Both the position numbers and the translations under genes were made by a program. A stretch of DNA of 34,430 nucleotides from Phycisphaerae bacterium (GTDB lineage Bacteria > Planctomycetota > Phycisphaerae > SM23-33), in contig JAGXKT010000020.1 in the NCBI GenBank assembly GCA_018335035.1, positions 1 to 34,430 of the forward strand, in the 5' to 3' direction. Every line of letters begins with the position of its first letter. Position 1 is the first letter of the stretch. A model generated the notes under the pieces. The model searched no databases, was not told where the DNA came from, and saw only the letters and a program-made list of their open reading frames with translations. Of the stretch, positions 8,573 to 16,119 are shown one piece after another.

Positions 8573-9643
8573 ATGCGGGTCGCGTTGATCGGGCCAAGGC
8601 AATCCGGCAAGAGCATCCTGCTGGCCGCCGTTGCCGAGGCGGGCGGCTCGCACGTGGACCTCTCGCGCCCGGACCAGCCGCATCGCGCCGTGGTCAAAGT
8701 GCCCGACCCGCGCGTGGACTGGCTGGCCGAGCAGTACCGGCCGAAGAAGGTCACCTACGCCGAGCTGGAATTCGTAGACACGCCGGGCTATGACCTGCGC
8801 GATGAGGCCGGGCGCCAGCATGCCAAGGCCCACTGGCCGCTCGTGCGGCAAAGCCATATGCTCCTGCCGGTCGTCCGGGCGTTCGACGACGCGACCGTAC
8901 CGGCCTATCGCGATCGGGTGGACCCCGTCGCGGACGTCGAGGAACTGCTGGCCGAGCTGCTGTTCGCGGACCTCGAGCAGGTGACCAATCGCGTCGAGAA
9001 GCTCAGCGAGTCCGTCCGCAAGCCAACGCCCCGTCGCAACGAAGACCAGCGCGAGTTGGAGCTGATGCAGCGCCTCCAGCAGACGCTGGAGGCCGAGCGG
9101 CCCGTCGCCGAGGCCGTCCGCACCGACGCCGAGGAGAAGCTCATCCGCAGCTTCGCGTTTCTGTCGCTCAAGTCGCTGCTGGTTGTGGTCAACAGCTCCG
9201 AGGCGCAGCTCGACGATCCGCCGCCGGAGATGCCGGCCGGGCTCCCCGCCATGCGGATCAGCGCGAAGATCGAGGAGGAGATCGCCGAGCTGCCCGCCGA
9301 CGAGCGGGCCGCATTCCTGGCTGACCTCGGCGTGTCGGCGTCGGCGCGGGACGTGCTGATCCGCGCCTGCTACGAGCGCATGAACCTCGTGAGCTTCCTG
9401 ACCTACGGCGAGGACGAGTGTCGCGCGTGGACCGTCCCGGCCGGAACGCGAGCCGTCGAGGCCGCGGGGGAAATCCACAGCGACATCGCGCGGGGCTTCA
9501 TCCGGGCCGAGACCGTCGCCTTCGACGACCTCCAGGCCGCCGGCGACATCAAGAGCGCCCGCGCGGCCGGCACACTCCGCCTGGAGGGCAAGGACTACGT
9601 CGTCGCCGACGGCGACGTGATCACGTTCCGATTTAACGTCTAG
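8573..9643 (+). CDS. YchF/Ola1-like NTPase with divergent G domain
   Basis: 356 residues, the same size as YchF. The C-terminal TGS-like (DUF933) domain is near-canonical: TYGEDECRAW, GTRAVEAAGEIHSD, RGFIRAE, LRLEGKDYVV and a terminal FRFNV. The N-terminal nucleotide domain is unusual: the P-loop reads GPRQSGKS (8-15) instead of the standard GxPNVGKS, the G3 motif is DTPGYD, and the G4 position reads VVNSSE, NxxE-like as in ATP-preferring YchF. A charged helical region (about 135-185) matches the YchF coiled-coil insertion. YchF binds ribosomes and hydrolyses ATP; this is probably a paralogue rather than the housekeeping copy, since the latter normally keeps NVGKS. Follows yidC by 43 nt. Confidence 0.85.
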   Translation: MRVALIGPRQSGKSILLAAVAEAGGSHVDLSRPDQPHRAVVKVPDPRVDWLAEQYRPKKVTYAELEFVDTPGYDLRDEAGRQHAKAHWPLVRQSHMLLPVVRAFDDATVPAYRDRVDPVADVEELLAELLFADLEQVTNRVEKLSESVRKPTPRRNEDQRELELMQRLQQTLEAERPVAEAVRTDAEEKLIRSFAFLSLKSLLVVVNSSEAQLDDPPPEMPAGLPAMRISAKIEEEIAELPADERAAFLADLGVSASARDVLIRACYERMNLVSFLTYGEDECRAWTVPAGTRAVEAAGEIHSDIARGFIRAETVAFDDLQAAGDIKSARAAGTLRLEGKDYVVADGDVITFRFNV

Positions 9644-9676
9644 TCCCTCGGCTCGCTGCTCGCACAGCACAAGCGG

Positions 9677-9771
9677 GTGCCGTGGTTTGCGCAGGGGCGG
9701 CGTCGCCGCCCCGAAGCAACCACGCAGACCCAGCCCAGACGTGGTTGCTCCCTGCGGTCGCAGCCCACGGC
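9677..9771 (+). repeat. Structured intergenic repeat, copy A
   Basis: 95-nt element closely matching the reverse complement of 14075-14175. It folds as an outer stem (GCCGTGG with CCACGGC) enclosing two hairpins: GGGGCGGC/GCCGCCCC with a 3-nt loop, and AGCAACCACG/CGTGGTTGCT with a 16-nt loop. A partial repeat of its 3' arm (CCTGCGGTCG...) follows at about 9798-9821. It has no coding potential and lies between the YchF-like and AsmA-like genes, in the same orientation as listed. Confidence 0.85.
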
Positions 9772-9882
9772 GCCCGCGCTCACAAACCGCGGCGCCTGCG
9801 GTCGTAGACCGTGGCACCGGCAGCCACGGACCCCGGCACGATGTCCGGCTCGCACGGCTCGCTATTGCGGCCGGGCGGACGG

Positions 9883-9888
9883 TATAAT
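9883..9888 (+). promoter_or_regulatory. Consensus -10 box predicting a leaderless AsmA-like mRNA
   Basis: TATAAT is followed by 7 nt and then GTG at 9896, so transcription should begin at or next to the start codon. No good -35 or Shine-Dalgarno is visible. Confidence 0.6.
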
Positions 9889-9895
9889 CCCGCTC

Positions 9896-12800
9896 GTGAG
9901 ACTGTTTCGCTCCAAGACGTCTCGTCCGCGGCGGCGCTGGTGGCAGGTCGCCGTGCGGTCGGCGGTTCTGGTCGCGGCGTTGCTGACGGCAGCGTACGCG
10001 ACGCTGCCGTACTGGGCGCCGACGGGCGTCCTGCGTCGCTGGCTGGCCAGGGAGATGTCCGCCCAGATGGGCGTGCCCGTCTCGATCCGCGAGGCGACGT
10101 TGAGTTGGTCGGACGGGCTGGAACTCCGTGGCCTGACCATCGACGCGCCCGACGGCGAGGGCGCGATGGTTCGGGCTGACGCGGTGCGCATGGATTTTTC
10201 GCCGGCGGATCTGTTTCGGCGGCGCGTGGCGTGGATGGAGGTGGTTCGCCCGCGCCTGTTCGTGCGATGGGACGCCTCGGGACGTTGCTCGATCGATCCG
10301 TTGCGGCGACTGAAGTTCGACGTCCTGGCTCGCCAAATCAGCGTCGACGGTGCCGAGGCGATCATCGAACCACCAGGCGCCGATGAGCCCGTGCTGCTGA
10401 AGGTCGGCTCGTTGGAGGTCCGTTCGGGCCGGACGGGGCAGTTCGCGCACGTCGCGTTGACGGGGCGACTCGTCCAGCCGGGCGACGATGCCCCTGTGAG
10501 CATGCAGTTCACCCAGCAACCGGTCGCGCCGGCTGCGCGCGCCTCGGCCTCGCTGGATTTCGACGGCGTGGCGCTGGAGCGGCTCGCCCTGTGCCCCGCA
10601 CTGAACCTGCCGCTGCGCCGCCTTGCCGGGCGATGCAGCGGCTCGCTCCAACTGCAACTGACCCGCACCGGCCTGGTCGACCCCGTCGCCGTAACGCTGG
10701 AGATCGCCGGACTCGACGCCCAGCCGAAGAAAGGGCCCGACCTGCCCGTGATCGAACAGGCCGGCATCGAGTTGACGGGCACCATCGATCCCCTGGCCGA
10801 AAGCGACCGCATCCGCATCGACCTGTCCGACGTGACCGTCCGCGTGCCGGGAATCGACCTGAGCGGTCAGGCGAGCATCCTGGCCGGCGCGGGCGTGCGC
10901 GTTCAGCAGGCGGCCGCGCGCGGCACGGTGGACCCGCAGCGGTTGACGGCGCTGCTGACGGGCATGGATTCGCCATCCGACCCGCTGCACTTCGCCGGGC
11001 CCGTGCGCATTGAGACCTTCACGCTGCAGCGCGAAGGTCCGGTCGCTCATGTCGAACTCGCCATCGACGCCACGCAGGCGACCGTCCGAGCCGCCGGCCG
11101 GGTGTACAAGCCGGTCGGCAACCGCCTCAGCATGCGCCTGGACGCCGTGCTGGACGAGCGGCGCGGGCAACTGCAGCTCTCGAACGTTCGCGTTGAACTC
11201 GGCGACGCCTGGATCGAACACGACGGACGCTACACGGGCGTGCTCGCCGCCGCGGGGCGGTTGCCGACGGAGGGCCTTCGCGCACTGCTGGGTGTCGACG
11301 TCGTGCGCAGCGCGGGGCGCTGGTACGCGGCGGATCTGGCGGCAGTGCGGAACGTCTGGCCGGCACTCGCGCCGCTGCAGGTCGACGGCGCCGCGTCAGG
11401 CGACTGGCAGTACGTCGGCCGGCCCGGCGGGCACGGACATTTCGAGGCGGGCATCTCGTCCGACGCCGCATCGGCGCTGACCCTTGGCGCGCACTTCATT
11501 AAGCCCTCCGGCAGCGCCCTGCACGTCAACGCCTCGGGACGCATCGTGCGACGCGGCGATCCGCGGCACGACCTCGATACCGACGTACACGTCGAAAAGC
11601 TGGACCTCACCGTCGGCGCCGGACGTCTACACACCGACGGCTTGACGCTGCGCGTCCGCGCCGGCGCCAACGGCCGGCCGACGGCCGCAATATCGGGCAA
11701 GGGCCGGTTCGACGTAACCTCGCTCCAATCGCTTCTGGCGTGCCTGCCGACTGCGGCAGAGACGGCGACGGTTCGCGGGTCGCTGCCCACCGGCGGACGC
11801 TACGTGATCGAGGGCGTCGATGGACGCGCCCAGGGACGCCTGGAGGCGGACCTGACGCCGCTGGATATTGCGGCCGAAGACCTGCTGGACAAGCCGCGCG
11901 GCGCGCCGGCGGCGTTGATGCTCGATGCGACGCTGGCGCCGCACGGCAACGGTCAGGGTAATGCCGTGCTGACGATGCGCCCCGAAGCCCGCTCCGGCGA
12001 GGCGGCGGACGACAAGCCGGCCGTGCGGCTGCACCTGGCGGGGAAACTTTCGACCGCCGCCGAGCGTTTCGAATGGCGCCCCGGGGCGCTGCAACTGGAT
12101 CTGCACGACGCCGACGCACGCTGGCTGGCACGCCGCCTGCCCGCGCTGAGACCCCCCGCGCATCTCCCGGAAGGGCTGCGCGTCAACGGGCGTGTGCGGC
12201 ACGCTTTTGCGACACCGGCGACCGTTGCAGTCACGGCCGAGCGCGAGGAGCCCCTGCGTCTGACACTCGGCGACAGTCATCTGGCCGCAAGTGGAACGGT
12301 AACACTCGCGCGCAGCAGCGATCTGCCGGCCGGCTCGCTCGACGCGTTGCGACACGTGGATGTGACCGTAACCGGGCGTCTCCACACGGACGACGTGGTC
12401 CGGACCTGGCCGACGGCGCGGAAGCTGTTGGCGTCGTTTGGAATCGACGGAACGTTGCGGGACATCTCGATGGCGCTTCGCGGCGACGGGCGCGCGCTGC
12501 AGGTAGAGGCCGGTGCCGATGCGACGGCGCTGGCGGCACGGCTCGACGTCGGCGTTCGGAAGCCGTCGGGGTTGCCGGCCGAGGTGTCGCTCGTCGCCGA
12601 CGTTCACGACGATCTGCGCACGATTGATCTCCGCACGTTCCACGCCCGCGCAGGCGGGGTCCGCCTCTCGGCCAGCGGATCGGCACGTTGGGATGGCGGC
12701 GCGGAGCGGGCGCATATGCTCCAGGCGGTCGCCAACGCCTCGGTCACGGCGGACGACGCCGCCACGCTTGAGCCCCTGCTGCCCACGCTCGCTGACGGCA

Positions 12801-14047
12801 ACCTCGGCGGCGGGATACAGGCCGACATCGCTTGGCGCCTCGCCGACGGGCGCATGCTTCGGGAGTTGACCCTGACCGCAGACGCGTTGACGGGGCGCTA
12901 CGGCGGCAAGGCGTTCGGGCTCGACGGCGCCGCGACGCTGTACGGCCTGCGCCTGCCCGACGGTGACGCGCCGGCGCGCGTCGCCCGCGCCAGGACCGAC
13001 GGATTGCACGTGCGCTTCGGCAACAGCCGGGGCTGGCTCATGGGCGATGTGCAAGCGGCCGCCCGAGGACCTACCGGACAGGTGCGGCTGCTCGCCCCTC
13101 ACGTCGACGCAGCGGAGGTGGGCGCCTGGCTGGGCGCGGCGTTTCCCGAGCAGCGCGACCACGAGGCGCCGCCGCGACAGCGAGCGCGAGACGTCATCGC
13201 GGCGATGCGCGACCGGTTGGACGAAGCGGACCTGGACGTCAGCGCCCACGTGCGCGCGCTGCGCTACCACGACGCATCCGTGAACGAAACGTACACCGTG
13301 CGCCAGGTCAATGTGCACGGCTCGGCGTCCAAGGGGCTTTGCACGCTCTCCTACGCCACCGGGCTCAGCGGCGGGCTGCTCAGCGGGAAGCTGGCGGTGG
13401 ACCTGTCCGACGCCGAACCGGTCGTGCACAGCGACGCCCGAATGCGCGAACTGATCGTCACCGAGGAGGTCCAGCCGCACATCAACCAGTACTTCCCGGG
13501 AAACGACGTCAGTGGACAGTTCTCTCGCACCGAGCAGACGCAGGTGCCGCTGGTGGAGCTGCTGGCGGGGCGGTTCGGCGCTGACGACGCGGCCCATCCG
13601 ACGGGCACGGCGCGGAATGTCGCCGTCGAGGGCACGGTCACGGGGCAGGCGGCGCCGGCGTTCATCACGGATATTTTCCCCAAGCTGGACCTGGCGACCT
13701 ACCGCTACGAGCGGATGACCGGCTTCGCCGAACTGCATGCCGACGGCTCGGCGACGAACGACATGGTCTTCGACGGGCGGGTGTACGATCTCTACATCGA
13801 CGGCCGCACCGATGCCGACCACATCGGGCACTACGAGATCGGCGTGATCCTGCCGCCGGGCATCCAGTCGGCCGAGTGGAACCACGCCCACCGCCTGGGG
13901 CGGATTCCGGTGTTGAAGTTCCGCGCCCGCATCGAAGGCGGCAAAATGCACGACGTGAAGGTTTCCTACCTCCGCCCGGACGAAATCGTCGCCGCGATCC
14001 TGTTGTGGAACAATCCCCTCTACGTGGCGCTGTCCAGCGGCGAGTGA
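9896..14047 (+). CDS. Large AsmA/TamB-like envelope protein
   Basis: 1383-residue protein with one N-terminal membrane helix (about 20-38, after a basic RPRRRWW start) and a very long extracytoplasmic part rich in short beta segments, as in AsmA-clan bridge-like lipid transport proteins. The segment MGVPVSIREATLSWSDGLEL just after the anchor matches the AsmA N-terminal pattern (novel helix, then strand with W-x-G-x-L). The C-terminus has IPVLKFRARIEGG and a final aliphatic LYVALSSGE. The family moves or organises phospholipids between membranes. GTG at 9896 is chosen because the upstream reading frame runs through the repeat and because the -10 box sits 7 nt away. The specific substrate is unknown. 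The gene is flanked by inverted copies of one repeat. Confidence 0.8.
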   Translation: MRLFRSKTSRPRRRWWQVAVRSAVLVAALLTAAYATLPYWAPTGVLRRWLAREMSAQMGVPVSIREATLSWSDGLELRGLTIDAPDGEGAMVRADAVRMDFSPADLFRRRVAWMEVVRPRLFVRWDASGRCSIDPLRRLKFDVLARQISVDGAEAIIEPPGADEPVLLKVGSLEVRSGRTGQFAHVALTGRLVQPGDDAPVSMQFTQQPVAPAARASASLDFDGVALERLALCPALNLPLRRLAGRCSGSLQLQLTRTGLVDPVAVTLEIAGLDAQPKKGPDLPVIEQAGIELTGTIDPLAESDRIRIDLSDVTVRVPGIDLSGQASILAGAGVRVQQAAARGTVDPQRLTALLTGMDSPSDPLHFAGPVRIETFTLQREGPVAHVELAIDATQATVRAAGRVYKPVGNRLSMRLDAVLDERRGQLQLSNVRVELGDAWIEHDGRYTGVLAAAGRLPTEGLRALLGVDVVRSAGRWYAADLAAVRNVWPALAPLQVDGAASGDWQYVGRPGGHGHFEAGISSDAASALTLGAHFIKPSGSALHVNASGRIVRRGDPRHDLDTDVHVEKLDLTVGAGRLHTDGLTLRVRAGANGRPTAAISGKGRFDVTSLQSLLACLPTAAETATVRGSLPTGGRYVIEGVDGRAQGRLEADLTPLDIAAEDLLDKPRGAPAALMLDATLAPHGNGQGNAVLTMRPEARSGEAADDKPAVRLHLAGKLSTAAERFEWRPGALQLDLHDADARWLARRLPALRPPAHLPEGLRVNGRVRHAFATPATVAVTAEREEPLRLTLGDSHLAASGTVTLARSSDLPAGSLDALRHVDVTVTGRLHTDDVVRTWPTARKLLASFGIDGTLRDISMALRGDGRALQVEAGADATALAARLDVGVRKPSGLPAEVSLVADVHDDLRTIDLRTFHARAGGVRLSASGSARWDGGAERAHMLQAVANASVTADDAATLEPLLPTLADGNLGGGIQADIAWRLADGRMLRELTLTADALTGRYGGKAFGLDGAATLYGLRLPDGDAPARVARARTDGLHVRFGNSRGWLMGDVQAAARGPTGQVRLLAPHVDAAEVGAWLGAAFPEQRDHEAPPRQRARDVIAAMRDRLDEADLDVSAHVRALRYHDASVNETYTVRQVNVHGSASKGLCTLSYATGLSGGLLSGKLAVDLSDAEPVVHSDARMRELIVTEEVQPHINQYFPGNDVSGQFSRTEQTQVPLVELLAGRFGADDAAHPTGTARNVAVEGTVTGQAAPAFITDIFPKLDLATYRYERMTGFAELHADGSATNDMVFDGRVYDLYIDGRTDADHIGHYEIGVILPPGIQSAEWNHAHRLGRIPVLKFRARIEGGKMHDVKVSYLRPDEIVAAILLWNNPLYVALSSGE

Positions 14048-14074
14048 GGGCTGACGCGTGCAGCTATCAGCAGG

Positions 14075-14175
14075 TGCCGTGGCTTGCGAACGCAGGGAGC
14101 AACCACGTCTGGCGATGGGTGGGTCTGCGTGGTTGCTTCGGGACGGCGATGCCGCCCCTGCGCAAACCACGGCAC
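14075..14175 (-). repeat. Structured intergenic repeat, copy B (inverted)
   Basis: 101-nt element whose reverse complement closely matches 9677-9771. The AGCAACCACG/CGTGGTTGCT stem is kept exactly while its loop is 6 nt longer, and the GGGGCGGC hairpin keeps pairing through a G-U. This pattern indicates a structure-conserved element. Confidence 0.85.
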
Positions 14176-14182
14176 GCGCCTG

Positions 14183-14201: not shown

Positions 14202-14230
14202 CTGACGGCTCTGCTCGGTTGGCGTACAAT
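14202..14230 (+). promoter_or_regulatory. Promoter for the polytopic membrane protein gene
   Basis: CTGACG (14202-14207), 17-nt spacer, TACAAT (14225-14230); start expected near 14237, leaving a leader of about 23 nt without a Shine-Dalgarno. The -10 lies in a 15-nt word that also occurs at the ior fusion promoter. Confidence 0.55.
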
Positions 14231-14259: not shown

Positions 14260-16119
14260 ATGACCAGGACGGCAAACGAGACGTTCGATCATCATCGCGG
14301 CGCCCGGCCGCTGCTGCGCCCGACGAGCCGTTTGCGCATCAGCATGTTTCTGCTGGTCAATCTGGCGGGCTTCGCCGTGGTCAACGCATTTTGGCTGTAT
14401 CTGACCACGGGGCAGTGGGTGCGGTTCTCGCTCGGCTCATACCGCAAGGCGATCGTCACACCGCTGGGCGAACTGCTCGTCGAGCCGCTGAGCGTGCTGA
14501 CCCACCCGTGGATGGTTCTCGTGACGGGGTTGCTACTGGCGCTGGTGATCTTGGTGCCGCTCGTCGTGGCCGTGCTGTACCGGCTGGTGTTCGCGGCCGC
14601 GTTCGTGGCGATGGTCGCTCTTGTCGGCCACGCGCCGGTGCTGGCGCTGGCGCTGGCGGTGGGCTGCATGGTGGCCGCCCGCACACCGCTGCGCAGCGAC
14701 ATGCCGTTTCTGGCGGTTCTGATCGGTTTGGCGCCGGTGGCGGCGTACTTGTATTTCTTCGCGTTTCAGGTCGGCGGGACACCGGCGGCACTGCCGCTGC
14801 AGAAGTGGGTGTTTTATGCGCCGTTCATTCTGGCCGGCTTGACCGCGGCGGTCGGTTCGGCCGTCGTGTTGTTTCTGGCGCGCCTGACGGGCTTCCGTCC
14901 GGGGGCGGTCTGGCCTGTGCTGGCGGTGTTGCTGGCCGCCCCGCTCGGCGTATTCTACACACACATCGGCGCCGAGGAACTGGAGTACCAACTGCTCGTG
15001 GCCGACCTGTCCGGCGGAGCGGGCATCTTCCACGACGTGGACCTGGAGCGGTGGAAGCGCCGCCACGGCGTCGGGCATCTTTCCCGCGAGGCGCTGTGGG
15101 TGCACCTGACCGGAAAGGACAACGACGATGGCGACGCCGGTTGGGTCGGTCGGCGGCGCAGGCAGCTTCAAATCGAATGCGAGCGCTTCCTGCGCGACTA
15201 CCCGGACGGCCAACGGACCGCCGAGGTCCTCTGGCTTCGCGGGCAGGCGATGAGCATCGAGGTCCGCCGGGCCGCCTTCGACCACGGACTGGTCAAGTAC
15301 TCCGCCGGTTACTGTCACGCGCCCTCGGCCGCGGCATGGCGCGAACTCGAAACGCGCCGCCCCAGTGCGCCGCAGGCGGCGCTGGCGCGCTGGAAGCTGG
15401 CACGCCTGGCGCTGCGACGCGGCACATCGGAGTCCGTCGAAGAGGCCCACGACCTGCTGACCGGCGCGCGGGCACGGCTGCGAGAGCATCTCGCCACGGA
15501 ACCCGCCGCGCCCGCACGCGTGTTCCTGCCCCCCGAGTCGCGCCCCACACGGCAGCACTATGACGAGGCGCTGGTCAACGTCGAGAAACTGCTCTGGATG
15601 CTCCGGCGCAACGCCCTGCGCGGCGAGCCGGAGGAGACGTTCGGTCAACGCGAGGCCCTGCGCGCCTGGCTCGACAAGAACCCCAATGCCGCCGGCTACC
15701 TCGGCAAGCTTGAGAACATCTGGTCGACCACGGCGAGCGGCACGCGCCTGGAGGACAATCTGAAACTCGCCATCGCGCGCCGGACGGACGACCTGGTCGT
15801 CAAGGCCGAACGCCTTCTCGAGGTCGAGGCGCTTGGGGCAACCCCGAACCGCCACCACGGCGCCGCGTTCGGCACCGCCGACGCCGCCTTGCCGGCGAAG
15901 TACTACCTGGGCCTGATCGCGATGCGCCCCGCCGACGTGCGGAAGCTGCATGAACTCTGGCACAAGCGCGACGCCCCCTACGCGCTGCGCGATGCACAAG
16001 CGTATTTCGACGAAGTCATCGCCGCCGACGAGCAGCCGTGGAAGCGGCTGGCCGAGCGGTGCCTGGCGCTGTCCGCCGGCGCGGCGGACAGGCGAAGCCG
16101 CAGGGACCAAGACCAATGA
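14260..16119 (+). CDS. Polytopic membrane protein with C-terminal helical-repeat domain
   Basis: 619 residues of unrecognised family. Residues about 25-250 contain six to eight membrane helices. The rest (about 260-619) is soluble, charged and helical with spacing reminiscent of tetratricopeptide repeats (for example the WKLARLALRRGTSESVEEAHDLL region and YDEALVNVEKLLWMLRR). No catalytic motif is apparent. The start has no Shine-Dalgarno but follows a promoter. Its stop overlaps the start of the glycosyltransferase by 4 nt (ATGA), so the two are coupled and probably work together, perhaps in lipid or exopolymer assembly at the inner membrane (inference). Confidence 0.75.
   Translation: MTRTANETFDHHRGARPLLRPTSRLRISMFLLVNLAGFAVVNAFWLYLTTGQWVRFSLGSYRKAIVTPLGELLVEPLSVLTHPWMVLVTGLLLALVILVPLVVAVLYRLVFAAAFVAMVALVGHAPVLALALAVGCMVAARTPLRSDMPFLAVLIGLAPVAAYLYFFAFQVGGTPAALPLQKWVFYAPFILAGLTAAVGSAVVLFLARLTGFRPGAVWPVLAVLLAAPLGVFYTHIGAEELEYQLLVADLSGGAGIFHDVDLERWKRRHGVGHLSREALWVHLTGKDNDDGDAGWVGRRRRQLQIECERFLRDYPDGQRTAEVLWLRGQAMSIEVRRAAFDHGLVKYSAGYCHAPSAAAWRELETRRPSAPQAALARWKLARLALRRGTSESVEEAHDLLTGARARLREHLATEPAAPARVFLPPESRPTRQHYDEALVNVEKLLWMLRRNALRGEPEETFGQREALRAWLDKNPNAAGYLGKLENIWSTTASGTRLEDNLKLAIARRTDDLVVKAERLLEVEALGATPNRHHGAAFGTADAALPAKYYLGLIAMRPADVRKLHELWHKRDAPYALRDAQAYFDEVIAADEQPWKRLAERCLALSAGAADRRSRRDQDQ

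Follow-up and report, generated by a model that had tools for sequence, protein, structure and literature searches.

Inverted REP doublets around an AsmA-like gene of a Phycisphaerae bacterium and the RAYT linked to the same REPs

Two elements of about 100 nt that flank an AsmA-like gene in opposite orientation very probably arose by separate insertions of one REPIN and have since partly decayed; a REPIN is a non-autonomous unit that a RAYT would move in trans. They were found in a window of 34,430 nucleotides, contig C8 of a 2.74 Mb draft genome of a Phycisphaerae bacterium in 82 contigs (hereafter G000), and are the strongest inverted repeats of the whole window (pairs I1, 75 nt at 89%, and I2, 43 nt at 88%). 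They belong to a REPIN family with a common hairpin structure and covarying stems, and the genome carries a RAYT gene linked to the same REPs. Most likely, the REPINs were spread by this RAYT, a single-strand transposase whose gene lies on another contig.

Architecture of the window elements

The likeness of the two elements in opposite orientation, already seen in the initial annotation, holds on closer comparison: with copy 2 as the query against its own genome, copy 1 was recovered at 87% identity over positions 1-110 (E 3.5e-33), and the boundaries of both could be redrawn (Table 1). In single-stranded DNA folding, each strand of either copy adopts the outer stem with two inner hairpins that had been proposed, with z values of -3.7 to -5.9, and the fold of copies 1 and 2 (all four strands) was matched by 0 of 200 shuffles. 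Read from either end, an element starts with a six-base tag, GGGTGC in its intact form, followed by the hairpin CGTGG-(Y)-TTGC ... GCAA-CCACG, which carries a bulged base and encloses a variable inner hairpin; beyond the spacer, the second module is the same REP in inverse. Two inverted REPs with a short spacer and the capacity to form hairpins are the doublet plan known as REPIN (PMC3116915). No Rfam family matched the window elements above its gathering score.

Comparison of the copies also bears on the finer claims made from the sequence. One stem of the inner hairpin is indeed kept through a G-U pair, since G-C becomes G-U between GGGGCGGC...GCCGCCCC and GGGGCGGC...GCCGTCCC, as read from the sequence. 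The length difference between the copies is present too, in the spacer, with a size of 5 nt rather than the 6 nt first given. Copy 1 has an intact left tag, GGGTGC, and a right tag with one substitution, GGGCGC, and each tag of copy 2 carries one substitution (AGGTGC and GCGTGC). Because three of the four window tags are altered in this way, the copies look like relics; the window REPINs appear partly decayed, and their present-day mobility is doubtful.

Table 1. Coordinates of the REPINs, REP-head arrays, RAYT gene and neighbouring genes (window positions unless a contig is named)
Feature	Position	Strand	Remarks
REPIN copy 1	9675..9775		REP 9675-9724 (+), spacer 9725-9739 (15 nt), inverted REP 9740-9775 (-)
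REPIN copy 2, opposite orientation	14072..14177		REP 14072-14107 (+), spacer 14108-14127 (20 nt), inverted REP 14128-14177 (-)
Long-REP stretch with variable inner hairpin GGGGCGGCGTCGCCGCCCC	9690..9717	+	folds; copy 2 counterpart near 14135-14162 (-)
Three degenerate tandem 22-nt REP-head copies (GGYGCCRYGG...)	9751..9837	-	repeat family D4; overlap copy 1 right end
REP-head arrays	window 9751-9837; G000:C58:1069-1153; C39:268023-268113; C6:44724-44908
Cognate RAYT gene, 189 aa	G000:C58:1262-1828	-	HxH and Y motifs
ychF GTPase gene, upstream of copy 1	8573..9643	+	Pfam PF06071, 115 bits
AsmA-like gene between copies	9896..14047	+	DUF748/YhdP-like, both under Pfam cut-off
619-aa ORF, downstream of copy 2	14260..16119	+	no Pfam family

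Dispersed copies and the RAYT of contig C58

The initial annotation had taken the elements for REP- or MITE-like sequences selected or mobilised through their structure, and had looked to further genomic copies and base-pair covariation to decide the matter. Both were found, together with a cognate RAYT bordered by the same REPs. Beyond the window, a third copy of full length was recovered at 82% identity (G000:C82:4898-4998), and full or partial copies were located on C82, C58, C48, C4, C7, C39 and C66. REP heads, defined as GGTGCCGTGGYTTGCG with at most one mismatch, number 24 in this genome, whereas the reversed pattern has no match; besides doublets, the family includes single REPs and arrays of heads. 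The family is made up of multiple dispersed copies, intergenic where position was established (in the window and beside the RAYT gene), at a low copy number of about 24 heads and few full doublets. Draft genomes from its family or order contain up to 127 matches to GGTGCCGTGGYTTGCG (G015), with 116 in G030, 66 in G005, 43 in G031 and 34 in G035. In G000 itself, the second pair of the stem reads CGT/ACG in 19 distinct REPs and CAT/ATG in 4, so that both sides change together, and the inner hairpin sequences are unrelated between REPs yet often self-complementary. The arrays are head-only tandem repeats with periods of about 18-25 nt in which the second hairpin half is missing.

The RAYT gene, the search for which had been suggested, was discovered through reading of contig C58. 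The Pfam family search missed it because its Y1_Tnp score of 21.1 falls below the cut-off of 23; it reaches 96 bits against NCBIfam NF047646 (cut-off 80). The encoded protein is of the Y1/HUH type expected of a RAYT, and 12/12 scanned members of its clade match the NF047646 family. A structure model was predicted for L166, a homologue with 69% identity (mean pLDDT 90.6); by Foldseek, its best PDB match is 4ER8, in which the E. coli RAYT binds a REP hairpin (E 1.4e-8, probability 1.00). Window-type REPs border the C58 gene on both sides, which is the arrangement of a REPtron: a RAYT gene flanked by inverted REPs that are dispersed in the genome.

The linkage extends to relatives. The RAYT of G022, 67% identical, has the same REP all around it. 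RAYTs of at least 60% identity are found in five genomes (G000, G003, G015, G022 and G035), and at least 6 REP heads are present in 5/5 of these versus 6/55 of the others, a co-occurrence with a hypergeometric p of about 1e-4, uncorrected for kinship. At E 1e-10, no cognate RAYT was detected in G030 and G005, two draft genomes with many REPs, possibly as a result of loss or of an assembly gap. The highest-scoring Y1_Tnp genes of the relatives were considered as the cognate enzyme and rejected, this REP not being present in their flanks. Two further loci of G000 resemble such genes: a distant RAYT-like gene, 33% identical (L088, G000:C59:151908-152354), has a GTCGTAGAACCG repeat on both sides by eye, and at G000:C18:290-1576 (L087) visual reading gave a Y1-transposase-like N-terminus that continues in frame into an RHS/YD-repeat-like segment and ends like an integrase, which may reflect a fused gene or a misassembly.

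Probable insertion beside ychF and the AsmA-like gene

Both copies sit just past a stop codon, on the coding strand, within a co-directional gene row (Table 1). The gap between ychF and asmA is 252 nt here, with copy 1 and the head array as its contents; in ten other genera, with both genes on the same strand throughout, it is about 0-70 nt, as would follow from an insertion of REP material between two neighbours. The AsmA-like protein likely starts at GTG 9896 rather than at GTG 9677, which lies inside the REPIN and is where first-start-codon gene calling would open it. Between each REPIN and the next gene lies a box, TATAAT at 9883-9888, close to the likely GTG start, and TACAAT at 14225-14230, picked up by a promoter scan.

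The same gene order speaks to the suggestion that the inverted pair is a switch, in which recombination between the copies would flip the AsmA-like gene. Such a switch, for which one could cite the inverted placement and 87% identity of the copies, is highly improbable: order and orientation of ychF and asmA are those of the ten other genera, so that nothing in the sequence points to inversion there, a scan of neighbouring genes revealed no recombinase, and the copies are short, diverged members of a dispersed family rather than repeats specific to the AsmA-like gene. No more credible is mobilisation by a DDE transposase, with the elements as classical MITEs bounded by terminal inverted repeats. 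The inverted termini and the length of about 100 nt would suit such an origin, but the termini of the window elements match the repeats on both sides of a Y1/HUH RAYT, in this and other genomes, and single REPs and head arrays exist beside the doublets.

It is also unlikely that a host role after ychF and asmA, such as mRNA 3′ protection, attenuation or gyrase binding, is what maintains the copies. REP effects of this kind are known (PMC6006769, PMC3733652), and the strong folds just past stop codons in a co-directional row would suit them; however, the combination of a G+C-rich stem and a subsequent T run that marks an intrinsic terminator was found in neither window copy, the tight ychF-asmA spacing of the relatives leaves no room for the element, and it is with the RAYT, not with ychF or asmA, that the tag and stem are associated. 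As a side effect, the REPINs could possibly act as 3′ transcript structures.

For insertion of REPINs by a RAYT, the reading that we prefer, the opposite orientation of copies 1 and 2 is most simply the chance outcome of two insertions around the AsmA-like gene. A REP would fold when its region turns single-stranded, as in replication, and the folded REP would be bound in trans by the HUH/Y1 RAYT of contig C58. With the tag as a guide, the enzyme would then cut beside the hairpin via its tyrosine and move or copy the doublet to another intergenic site.

REP tags and RAYT residue 27 in the Planctomycetota clade

The homologues of the C58 RAYT came from two sources, related genomes and named GTDB genomes, and were mostly of Phycisphaerae and Pirellulales, with one from Zixibacteria. 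A motif-free search for the inverted repeats that flank these genes gave GGGTG[C/G]C in most cases. After deduplication, 74/86 clade RAYTs have a GGGTG[C/G] tag with a hairpin within 450 nt, and 61/86 have it on both sides. In shuffled flanks, both-sided tagged hairpins were obtained at 0.05 of 110 loci; at 600-1500 nt from the gene, any hit was found at 14/69 loci, and some of these distal hits may be genuine further REPs. A register test, which works without prior choice of stems, counted 154 perfect 7-bp stems directly after the tag and 20 one base earlier. The pair just outside the hairpin foot is paired in 30% and is thus not kept, which leaves the tag unpaired. Between lineages, both arms of the stem change at pairs 2, 3, 5 and 6; pairing persists in 87% at pair 7 and in 76% at pair 8, neither of which entered into the selection of stems. 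Inspection of the bases 5′ of the tag for a cleavage-site signal gave nothing decisive. Five distant RAYTs, at about 30% identity, fall outside the clade, and the inverted repeats of the distant RAYTs L124, L125, L126 and L128 contain GTAG (L124: TGGTAGGG). Unusually long REP loops, of about 35-50 nt between conserved stem arms, were seen at L227 and L228 (Gemmataceae MAG) and at L195.

REPINs, RAYTs and their linkage are already established (PMC3116915, PMC2817692, PMC6006769), best studied in gammaproteobacteria, and REPs have been noted before in Planctomycetes (PMC3733652). The window family shares with the REPIN/RAYT system of Pseudomonas fluorescens SBW25 the two inverted REPs with a spacer, the hairpin or clover fold and the RAYT beside the same REPs (PMC3116915), whereas its tag and stem sequences, its phylum and its far lower copy number set it apart. 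The E. coli TnpAREP/REP pair (PDB 4ER8; PMC8266576), the source of the structural data on RAYT-REP contacts, likewise combines a HUH/Y1 fold with a hairpin that has an unpaired tag and a stem bulge, but the tag is GTAG there and GGGTGC here, with GTGC as the last four bases, and the WQ segment reads IWQP-RFWEH there and FWQRGGGYDRN here. GTAG-tagged REP families also have an unpaired tag at the foot of the palindrome, dimers and RAYT linkage, and sister lineages of the window family carry GTGG, an accepted form of the GT[AG]G tag (PMC3733652; PMC6006769). The window family itself has GTGC directly 5′ of the foot, which places it outside the GT[AG]G definition of that superfamily: its tag ends in C, and the conserved tag extends two bases further out (GGGTGS). 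It also falls outside the CGTC superfamily, defined by a CGTC tag and no linked transposase, having another tag and a linked RAYT. The class 3 TnpAY1 of Planctomycetes resemble the present RAYTs in phylum and in repeats flanking a Y1 gene (PMC6006769), but differ in their CnGA foot and in a tyrosine motif Y----Q, which is YIHxNPV here. A literature search of main texts returned no account of the GGGTGS tag, its GTGC form or a tag-tracking residue, and the Planctomycetota GGGTGS RAYT/REP pattern seems undescribed in the literature searched; some overlap is possible between GGGTGS REPs and the R. baltica families of PMC3733652. GGGTGS provides a REP signature, and lineages with GTGC are missed by searches limited to GT[AG]G.

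The sixth tag base was C in 170 cases, G in 88 and A in 2 in a first labelling that includes some spurious hits, and the RAYT tree implies roughly a dozen switches between C and G. For the residue analysis, tag labels were assigned by a stricter stem rule. At position 27 (C58 numbering), Arg was present in 43/45 C-type and 6/19 G-type RAYTs of a first sample (p 1.7e-7, best of 388 tests), and in a second sample of 50 new RAYTs across the phylum in 19/20 C-type versus 7/18 G-type (p 2.9e-4). In the combined set, Arg occupies this position in 62/65 C-type versus 13/37 G-type proteins (p 4.5e-11, best of 467 tests), the next-best column reaching 4e-5. Among nine phylogenetically independent pairs, residue 27 went with the tag in 5.9 and against it in 0.0 (median sign-test p 0.03). 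The association is asymmetric: Arg is nearly obligatory with C-type tags, whereas several residues are tolerated with G-type ones.

One RAYT residue thus appears, by correlation, to track tag base 6. That the last tag base switched repeatedly between G and C and took residue 27 with it (Arg for the C-type), as a natural one-residue determinant of guide reading and possibly of cleavage-site choice, has about even chances of being right. Under the IS608-type pairing rule reported in PMC8266576, cleavage would be expected at GC or GA with GTGC guides and at CC or CA with GTGG guides. With a clade-wide switch at one base and one covarying residue, RAYT-REP recognition becomes testable by a small set of swaps. 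Position 27 corresponds to residue 23 of L166 and lies, in the L166 model, just past strand β1 (E13-20); in the E. coli RAYT, GTAG is contacted by β1, by the region around β4 and by the C-terminus (PMC8266576). Residues 103, 63, 151, 132 and 136 are also tag-associated in the combined set, far more weakly.
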